DNA of 64,000 bases, taken from an uncultured Pelagibacteraceae bacterium (GTDB lineage: Bacteria; Pseudomonadota; Alphaproteobacteria; Pelagibacterales; Pelagibacteraceae). The stretch lies in contig CACJEG010000004.1 of assembly GCA_902592375.1 (NCBI GenBank), positions 1 to 64,000 on the forward strand. The letters are read 5' to 3'. The notes below the pieces were generated by a model. The model had not been told where the DNA came from and made no database searches. It saw only the letters and a program-made list of their open reading frames with translations. Positions within the stretch are counted from its first letter, which is position 1. Every line of letters starts with the position of its first letter. Of this stretch, positions 28,487 through 30,736 are shown piece after piece. A program made the position numbers and the translations under genes.

Positions 28487-29050
28487 GTGAGCGTACAAAA
28501 TTTAATAATTTATAAGTTTACTACATTATATCAAATCCTTGATGAACTTGAATCAGATTTAAACTTTAATATAATCTTTGTAGATAATGAAAATTCTTTA
28601 AAAGATAAGATAAAAAATCTTAATTATTGTTTAGTATTATCAAATAAAAAATATTCAGGTATTAGCAACTTTTTTTTTTTAGACAAACTACCAATCAATA
28701 TATTTAAATTTATCGAAAAGATAAATATTGAATTTTTAAAACAACAATTTAATAGTCAATCAGAATTGAGAATAAATCAATATATAATTGATCTAAATTC
28801 AAGAGAATTGATATCGAGTAATTCAATACTTAAATTGACTGAGAAAGAAATTAATACAATTACTTATATATCAAAATCAAACAAACCGGTTAGCATTAAT
28901 GAATTACAAGAAAAAGTTTGGAGTTATCAATCTGATATAGAAACTCATACTGTTGAGACTCATATCTATAGGTTGAGAAAAAAAATCTTAAATACATTTA
29001 ATGATAACGAATTTATAATTAGCAAAAAAGATGGTTATCAAATCAAATAA
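28487..29050 (+). CDS. OmpR/PhoB-type winged-helix DNA-binding protein with degenerate receiver-like N-terminus
   Basis: A 187-aa protein from a GTG start at 28487, 12 bp from the divergent L,D-transpeptidase start. Residues about 95-187 form a Trans_reg_C winged helix: LTEKEINTITYI, VSINELQEKVW, ETHTVETHIYRLRKKI and KKDGYQIK are classical PhoB-like blocks. The first 90 residues are receiver-sized but I cannot find the phospho-acceptor Asp and Lys arrangement with confidence. It is probably phosphorylation-independent. The ArfA-like ORF follows 10 bp later. Confidence 0.82.
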   Translation: MSVQNLIIYKFTTLYQILDELESDLNFNIIFVDNENSLKDKIKNLNYCLVLSNKKYSGISNFFFLDKLPINIFKFIEKINIEFLKQQFNSQSELRINQYIIDLNSRELISSNSILKLTEKEINTITYISKSNKPVSINELQEKVWSYQSDIETHTVETHIYRLRKKILNTFNDNEFIISKKDGYQIK

Positions 29051-29060
29051 GAAAAACCCA

Positions 29061-29150
29061 ATGGCTAAAGACTTATTTACAAAAAAGTATAAGCCAAAAG
29101 TAGTTAAGCCAAAAAAAGGTAAGGGGAGTTTTAAAAGAAAAAAAATTTAA
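29061..29150 (+). CDS. Very small ORF resembling alternative ribosome-rescue factor A (ArfA) core
   Basis: A 29-codon ORF with ATG 29061-29063 and stop TAA 29148-29150, just after the winged-helix gene. The predicted product is highly basic: it begins MAKDLFTKK and contains KKGKGSFKRKK. This matches the conserved core of ArfA, D-x-L-F followed about 10 residues later by KKGKGSY-x-RK, which enters the empty mRNA channel of a stalled ribosome. It lacks the long N-terminal helix of E. coli ArfA and its hydrophobic tail. Assignment is by motif only. Confidence 0.6.
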   Translation: MAKDLFTKKYKPKVVKPKKGKGSFKRKKI

Positions 29151-29151
29151 G

Positions 29152-30081
29152 TTAAAGTCTTGCCCCAATTTGTTGTATTACTTTAGTTGACATTTCAGTA
29201 CCTTTTTCAAGACACTCTTTTGTAGATAATTTGTTAATGTACCCGTGTAAAAAACCAGCAGCAAAAAGATCGCCTGCACCTGTAAGATCAATAATTTTTA
29301 GATTTTTCTGTACATCACTTTCAATAACCTCATTACCATTAACTGCAATTGCTCCTTTTTCTCCTCTAGTTACAATCACTAATTTATTAAGTTGTTTTGA
29401 AAAGCTTATAACTTCATTAAAATTTTTCGCTTCAATTAATGAGGTAATTTCTTGTTCATTAGCGAAGGTTATATCAAGTTTGTTTTTAACTAAATTTAAA
29501 AAATGAGGTTTGTGTCTATCCACACAAAATAGATCAGAGAGTGACATAGCAACTTTGTTTGCATTATTTATTGCTTTATCAAAGGCTTTCTTAGGATCTC
29601 CTTCATCCCACAAGTAACCCTCTAAAAATATTATTTCACTTCTTTTAATAGCATCTGAATTAACATCATTTTCGTTTATTTTTCCTGCTGTTCCTAAAAA
29701 AGTACACATTGTTCTCTCTGAGTCTGGTGTTACCAATATTAAACATGTTCCAGTTGGTAATTGTTCTTTTTTTTTTGAATATAGGTATTCTACATTTTCT
29801 TTTTTTAAACCTTCCTCGTACTTACTCCCAAATTCATCATCAGAAACTTTTCCTATAAATCCAACTTTATCTCCAAGTTGTGATAATCCTACTATAGAGT
29901 TTGCCACTGAACCTCCAGAAACTGTTTTTTCGATTTTAAGATTTGTTAATAAACTTTTGAATTCACTTTCATCAAAAAATAATTTCATAGTACTTTTTGT
30001 GAGATTATTTTGCATAATAAAGCTGTCATCAACTTTACAAATTACATCCACAATTGCATTTCCTATTCCTAAAACTTTCAT
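29152..30081 (-). CDS. PfkB-family carbohydrate/nucleoside kinase (adenosine kinase-like)
   Basis: The start is set at 30081 (MKVLGIGNAIVDV), giving 309 aa; the longer ORF adds 8 residues. PfkB signatures are GGSVANSIVGLSQLG at the sugar/nucleoside site and the catalytic DLTGAGDLFAAGF with its Asp base. The N-terminal GNAIVD and overall similarity fit the alphaproteobacterial adenosine kinase-like group, but inosine-guanosine or sugar kinases cannot be excluded. It is 1 bp away from nth and ends 1 bp after the small ArfA-like ORF. Confidence 0.85.
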   Translation of the reverse strand: MKVLGIGNAIVDVICKVDDSFIMQNNLTKSTMKLFFDESEFKSLLTNLKIEKTVSGGSVANSIVGLSQLGDKVGFIGKVSDDEFGSKYEEGLKKENVEYLYSKKKEQLPTGTCLILVTPDSERTMCTFLGTAGKINENDVNSDAIKRSEIIFLEGYLWDEGDPKKAFDKAINNANKVAMSLSDLFCVDRHKPHFLNLVKNKLDITFANEQEITSLIEAKNFNEVISFSKQLNKLVIVTRGEKGAIAVNGNEVIESDVQKNLKIIDLTGAGDLFAAGFLHGYINKLSTKECLEKGTEMSTKVIQQIGARL

Positions 30082-30082
30082 A

Positions 30083-30736
30083 TTAAGCTTTTTTGGTAAT
30101 AACACTTTTTTTCCTATTTGGGTAGCAAGTAGTACAAATTTTACATTTTAGACCATAACAATCTCTTGCTTTACAATATTCTCTACCATAAAAAATTATT
30201 TGTAAATGAAGTTTAGACCAAGTTTTTTTAGGGAATATTCTTTTTAAATCTTTTTCAGTTTGAACCACATTTTTTCCATTTGTTAAACCCCATCTTTGTG
30301 CAAGTCTATGTATATGAGTGTCAACCGCAAAAGCTGGATATCCAAAGCCTTGAGACATTACTACGCTTGCAGTTTTGTGTCCTACACCAGGTAATTTTTC
30401 AAGTTCATCAAAGGTTTTAGGAACTTTACCTTTGTGTTTTTCTAACAATTGCTTTGACATTAAGTAAATGCTCTTAGCTTTTACTCTAAAAATACCAATT
30501 TTTTTAATTAATTTTTCAATTTTTTTTCTCCCTAATTTTACAAAGTGTTCCGGTTTATAGTATTTAGGATAGATATCTTTTGTTACATTGTTAACATTAG
30601 CATCAGTACATTGTGCAGAAAGCAGAACAGAAATTAATAGTGTAAAAGTATTTTTACTTTTTAAAGGAACAGGCGTTTTAGGATAAATTTTATTTAAAGT
30701 TTTAATGATAATTTTTGCTTTTTGTTTTTCATTCAT
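30083..30736 (-). CDS. nth: Endonuclease III (Nth), with unusual cysteine spacing
   Basis: Nth is the bifunctional glycosylase/AP lyase for oxidised pyrimidines. The 217-aa protein has SVLLSAQCTDANVN, the helix-hairpin-helix LPGVGHKTASVVM with the catalytic Lys, and the catalytic Asp in AVDTHIHRL. The C-terminal Fe-S region has five Cys spaced C-x4-C-x4-C-x2-C-x2-C instead of the textbook C-x6-C-x2-C-x5-C, so cluster binding here needs checking. It shares one base with dapB. Confidence 0.94.
   Translation of the reverse strand: MNEKQKAKIIIKTLNKIYPKTPVPLKSKNTFTLLISVLLSAQCTDANVNNVTKDIYPKYYKPEHFVKLGRKKIEKLIKKIGIFRVKAKSIYLMSKQLLEKHKGKVPKTFDELEKLPGVGHKTASVVMSQGFGYPAFAVDTHIHRLAQRWGLTNGKNVVQTEKDLKRIFPKKTWSKLHLQIIFYGREYCKARDCYGLKCKICTTCYPNRKKSVITKKA

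Follow-up and report, generated by a model that had tools for sequence, protein, structure and literature searches.

Rescue of ribosomes stalled on broken messages by ArfA has been described at the residue level in E. coli, where one strand of the protein joins RF2 and a basic segment occupies the mRNA channel (PMC5378476, PMC8012679). A three-residue hydrophobic patch of E. coli ArfA (Leu19, Leu24 and Phe25) binds Trp319 of RF2, replacement of Ala18 by Thr inactivates the protein, and truncation to 47 residues leaves a working factor while truncation to 40 does not (PMC5378476). The hairpin of canonical arfA gives rise to a non-stop message, through which the gene is repressed by tmRNA (PMC8012679). 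A 2024 survey found arfA in none of 2,376 alphaproteobacterial genomes (PMC11633108), and ArfA has been reported in two marine phages, pelagiphage HTVC027P (gp30) and Citromicrobium phage RXM (g10) (PMC12753301, PMC8953757). No report of an ArfA encoded by a SAR11 cell was found in the open-access literature, though an earlier report elsewhere is possible.

The DNA analysed here, a stretch of 64,000 nucleotides referred to as the window, comes from the 1.25-Mb draft genome of an uncultured member of the Pelagibacteraceae (G000, 95% complete). It carries an arfA whose product has a shortened N terminus and which lacks both the tail and the non-stop control of its canonical counterparts (Table 1); an ArfA of this kind in SAR11 appears to be new. 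Most genomes of one SAR11 genus carry the gene despite the zero in the survey, and SAR11 bacteria are among the most abundant in the ocean.

Table 1. Features of the arfA locus, with positions numbered from the first letter of the window
Feature	Position	Strand	Description
arfA, corrected gene	29031..29150	+	39 aa (MVIKSNKKNPMAKDLFTKKYKPKVVKPKKGKGSFKRKKI), then TAA stop; start and frame conserved in 87 loci
ORF of the first-pass annotation	29061..29150	+	29 aa (MAKDLFTKKYKPKVVKPKKGKGSFKRKKI), TAA; Met 29061 is internal Met11
Codon of invariant Asn9	29055..29057	+	Equivalent to E. coli ArfA Asn14; 87/87; lies 5' of Met 29061
Tyr20-Val25	29088..29105	+	Counterpart of ArfA Phe25-Glu30 in the gapless alignment; predicted RF2-binding strand
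Lys26-Lys38	29106..29144	+	Predicted basic mRNA-channel segment, KKGKGSF..R; KKG.GS and Arg invariant, 87/87
Upstream neighbour	28487..29050	+	OmpR-type DNA-binding C-terminal domain (PF00486, Pfam)
Downstream neighbour, convergent	29152..30105	-	PfkB-family kinase (PF00294, Pfam)

The first-pass annotation had described a 29-codon ArfA-like ORF. That ORF exists and reads as described, but it begins too late, and the conserved protein has 39 residues. In an alignment of 87 homologues (G000 and 86 of the 120 same-genus genomes), the column of Met 29061 is mostly Ile, Phe, Val or Leu, and the Asn two residues before it is invariant in all 87, so the conserved start is the ATG at 29031. A gene that starts there overlaps its upstream neighbour by 20 nt at the neighbour's 3' end. 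With one exception, the aligned homologues are 34-43 residues long.

The gene is real and strongly conserved. The nucleotide cores of the 87 homologues are all distinct, and the shared 29-codon core has a pN/pS of 0.18 in the arfA frame (543 pairs), with 1750, 1295 and 5316 substitutions at the first, second and third codon positions, the third being dominant. The other two forward frames give values of 1.3 and 2.1, and one antisense frame gives 0.36, which is expected since its third positions coincide with those of arfA. The OmpR-like gene lies 5' of arfA at 81 of the 87 loci, and the convergent PfkB kinase gene lies 3' of it, usually adjacent, also at 81. Conservation in relatives, which the first-pass annotation had proposed as a check, is thus found in 86 of 120 genomes and mostly at the same place, and neither of the outcomes that it had named as fatal to the idea, an unconserved ORF or missing coding constraint, was observed. 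A chance ORF in an AT-rich genome could well be short and lysine-rich and, like the window protein, be assigned no family by NCBIfam; the probability of such an origin is nevertheless negligible given the conservation across the genus, the pN/pS, the third-position bias and the constant location, and the conservation together with the substitution pattern refutes it. In six same-genus genomes (G114, G110, G062, G072, G094 and G096) the two neighbours abut each other without arfA between them, an exact absence of the gene at this site. Two further genomes of the genus, G092 (L076) and G068 (L342), have divergent KGKGS or KGRGS copies (…ILYT[RK]QYSPKK[VI]KPKKG[KR]GSF…) outside the usual OmpR-PfkB locus.

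Against the ArfA profile PF03889 (cut-off 25.5 bits), the 29-residue form scored 26.6 bits (E 4.1e-6); in the genome scan the score was 25.5, exactly the cut-off, and the 39-residue form scored 23.4, which makes the match a marginal one. The cut-off was exceeded by 49 of the 200 relatives searched. The best PDB matches were to residues 9-27 of E. coli ArfA and were weak (E about 0.4). A profile comparison between the SAR11 proteins of the window type (type i) and canonical ArfA gave a probability of 97% (E 5e-11) over a gapless alignment from Asn14 through the channel segment. Columns were shuffled 100 times for each profile comparison and none of the 100 shuffles came near the observed score, which speaks against a chance likeness of lysine-rich profiles. 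The initial placement of the protein as an ArfA of minimal size in SAR11 therefore stands, by the profile, the length of 39 residues and the profile search in relatives.

The gapless register with E. coli ArfA runs from Asn14 to residue 44 and pairs Asn9 with Asn14, Leu15 with Leu20 and Tyr20 with Phe25. It also puts Pro22-Val25 at the RF2-joining strand and the residues from Lys28 on at the mRNA-channel segment. It was a D-L-F...KKGKGSFKRK arrangement that had first called ArfA to mind; the KKGKGS channel segment is indeed present, but D-L-F is not the counterpart of DPLF in E. coli, an alignment that was rejected because the gapless register puts Tyr20 at Phe25. The most conserved positions are those expected for ArfA, namely (in E. 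coli numbering) Asn14, Leu20, Tyr/Phe25, KKGKGS and Arg41. Position 25 is aromatic in all 87 proteins (Tyr in 76, Phe in 11), and the channel segment KKGKGS[YF]xR is invariant in all of them except for Lys/Arg and Phe/Tyr exchanges. In contrast to E. coli ArfA, the N-terminal minidomain and the Leu19/Leu24 hydrophobic patch are not kept, Leu19 being replaced by Asp, Glu or Asn and Leu24 by Lys or Arg. Both vary among other PF03889 members as well, and are therefore counted as features of canonical ArfA rather than as ones that define the family. The equivalent of Ala18 is Lys in SAR11 ArfA. In the E. coli protein Ala18 packs against Ile11, and since this packing part is shortened in SAR11, the constraint on Ala18 may be gone.

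The N-terminal region that recruits RF2 had been thought to be missing. With the corrected start the RF2-engaging region is present, and what lacks a counterpart is limited to residues ~1 to 5-10 of E. coli ArfA. The absence of the hydrophobic tail was noted correctly: its last residue corresponds to position 44 of E. coli ArfA, so that its end falls between those of the truncated E. coli versions that do (47) and do not (40) work. ArfAs of Pseudomonas-like genomes (family f71; the organism is our reading) are likewise short at this end, where the conserved Asn is preceded by some 8-12 residues, and have a basic start resembling Asn-x-Ala-Lys, with Arg-Tyr in place of Leu-Phe in one member (L297), but they differ from SAR11 ArfA in their longer C-terminal part and strong in-ORF hairpin.

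The in-ORF hairpin on which canonical arfA regulation depends is absent from the 87 SAR11 ORFs, as the first-pass annotation had stated for this one. Their mean folding z-score is +0.26 and the best 40-nt hairpin averages -4.3 kcal/mol, while most canonical arfA ORFs have z-scores of about -2 to -5. With no hairpin and a normal stop codon, production of SAR11 ArfA is presumably constitutive, with nothing on which the tmRNA-dependent control known from E. coli could act. The result would be a very small ArfA, free of the control that made the E. coli protein an induced backup.

SAR11 arfA probably encodes a 39-residue, RF2-dependent ribosome-rescue factor that ends at a normal stop codon. From the sequence we infer that the gene is expressed and that its product binds the ribosome and both recruits and activates RF2. 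When a ribosome has run to the 3' end of a broken mRNA and stalled, the C-terminal basic segment (KPKKGKGSFKRKK) would enter the empty mRNA channel and the middle of the protein, around Tyr20-Val25, would pair with the beta-sheet in domain 2 of RF2. RF2 would thereby be placed without a stop codon and would release the peptide. Off the ribosome, the isolated peptide is expected to be disordered. Four points were counted against this function: two of the three patch residues are non-hydrophobic, Ala18 is Lys, the protein ends at 44, and the locus is empty in six same-genus genomes.

The presence of other rescue genes, which the first-pass annotation had recommended checking, bears on the setting in which ArfA would operate. 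The genome has tmRNA, and SmpB was found in all 29 genomes that are at least 90% complete. No Pelagibacterales genome among those searched had ArfB over the cut-off, and seven other alphaproteobacteria did; ArfB as a hidden backup was accordingly rejected. The GGQ catalytic domain of ArfB (YaeJ) is absent from the 39-residue protein itself. SAR11 ArfA would thus operate beside tmRNA-SmpB in a genome in which ArfB was not found. A second, weak alpha_tmRNA match (30.4 bits, under the gathering score) lies near a contig end of the same genome (G000:C13:248-350, L091).

RF2 of SAR11 relatives retains the residues that contact ArfA (taken from PMC5378476), namely Trp319, Phe217 and Val198 (as Ile), and RF1 lacks them, which makes RF2 the likely partner and leaves the earlier suggestion of a different release-factor partner unsupported. 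Most relatives have both RF1 and RF2. In G000 a single RF-1-domain protein was found and prfB is missing; the whole mrcA-prfB region is missing with it, which points to an assembly gap, and an organism without RF2 that is forced onto RF1 was rejected on these grounds. It is unlikely that the protein is an ArfA-derived factor that uses RF1 also or exclusively. Such a factor would resemble Francisella ArfT, which is of similar size (40 residues), has a basic KKGGSTNKK segment, ends at a stop codon without hairpin control, and uses RF1 or RF2; the charged residues that now occupy the Leu19/Leu24 patch facing Trp319 of RF2 would also fit. ArfT, however, has low similarity to ArfA and no hydrophobic residue at position 25, where all 87 SAR11 proteins have Tyr or Phe, and the ArfA contacts are retained by RF2 and not by RF1 in bacteria that possess both factors.

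The protein could instead be a small basic ribosome- or RNA-binding descendant of ArfA that has lost rescue, such as a factor for hibernation or assembly, as its high lysine content, missing N-terminal part and changed Ala18 might suggest. Conservation that peaks at just the positions expected for ArfA makes this quite unlikely, and the carriage of the same core by phages suits a role in translation without proving rescue. RF2-dependent rescue remains the preferred function.

Related proteins with the same core and other tails occur elsewhere in SAR11. In type ii (MSKKRKKLKKKNPMAKLLSSPMLRNKIVKNKKKIYNRKKFKLENE) GKGS is replaced and the protein ends in a KNKKKIYNRKK tail. Its gene occupies a second conserved site adjoining a gene for a 379-residue protein, as read in ten genomes (L410-L419: G033, G072, G096, G593, G609, G669, G680, G751, G697 and G784; protein KNPMAKLLSSPMLRNKIVKNKKKIYNRKK), with a pN/pS of 0.13; the type ii profile matched canonical ArfA with a probability of 81% (E 1.3e-5). 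Two of these genomes, G072 and G096, combine type ii with an empty arfA site next to PfkB, and in G033 type ii is present and type i was not detected. G114 (L334) probably has an empty arfA site too and shows a weak type-ii-like match at the type ii locus. Type iii, of 41-44 residues, was found in 40 genomes of the sister family f2 (L335-L341, L374-L409), in most of the loci read within the order lpxB-recX-SDR-[gene]-nitroreductase, and has a pN/pS of 0.34. It has the NP[IV]A[KR]xLRTxK[FY] core in common with type i and a different basic tail (NKKKLHEKKRIKIKL-type), which by eye we take to bear a slight resemblance to the C-terminal tail of SmpB. The type iii profile compared with that of type i at 96% and, when run on G000, matched the window gene only (E 6e-7). 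Types ii and iii score below the PF03889 cut-off: core and profile connect them with ArfA, but by the cut-off they do not belong to the family.

These proteins raise the possibility that Pelagibacterales ArfA is a modular family, in which a short RF2-engaging core (N-P-x-A-K-x-L...) is kept and the mRNA-channel tail is replaced among types i, ii and iii; we consider the case for it to be evenly balanced. If all three types rescue ribosomes, KGKGS would not be needed for sensing an empty mRNA channel, and one class of rescue factors would escape the present ArfA profile. Since the channel-sensing tail is replaced in relatives, nature supplies a set of variants with which the necessary parts of ArfA could be identified. 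A GKGS-less protein (MKRNPIAKALRTPKFKKKVIKDKKKYNRKKVKKYF) is encoded by G596 (L422), which belongs to a different genus of the same family; its score meets the cut-off of the uncharacterised family DUF7230 (PF23876), to which some phage ArfAs show weak matches and the window protein none. The G596 match suggests that DUF7230 may be related to ArfA. G613 (L424), also of another genus of the family, has a GKGS-less ArfA-like protein as well. Outside SAR11, a genome of a different alphaproteobacterial family (G469; L310/L343) has a protein that exceeds the PF03889 cut-off, carries KKGKGAY and extends into a longer tail.

Proteins very like SAR11 ArfA, with the arrangement NP-x-AK...KPKKGKGS[FY], are also encoded on low-GC viral contigs. 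A tblastn search of a phage collection with the 39-residue protein gave no match, which does not imply absence because the lysine-rich query is subject to low-complexity filtering. A strict DNA pattern for KPKKGKGS found at least 120 matching stretches on viral contigs, and in 67 of the 80 that were read (L129-L208) an Asn stood exactly at -19, a residue that the pattern did not demand. Phage structural or replication genes were present on the two viral contigs checked. One contig with virion and tail genes (L202) encodes MKRKNIIAKDLMSKKYKPRIVKPKKGKGSFKRK, which is very like the host copies. The ArfA-like proteins of marine phages such as HTVC027P gp30 and RXM g10 share PF03889 with SAR11 ArfA and differ in being virus-encoded and, in many cases, in having longer N-terminal parts. 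With the same protein encoded on viral contigs, infection may involve the borrowing of rescue or a contest over it; the comparison of phage and host copies covers about 35 positions, too few for a tree on the direction of transfer. In four viral stretches (L167, L153, L170 and L148) KPKKGKGS stands on unrelated N-terminal parts, one cysteine-rich and zinc-ribbon-like (L167) and one in a 1667-residue frame (L153). Judged by its sequence contexts, the channel segment looks as if it were a movable module.
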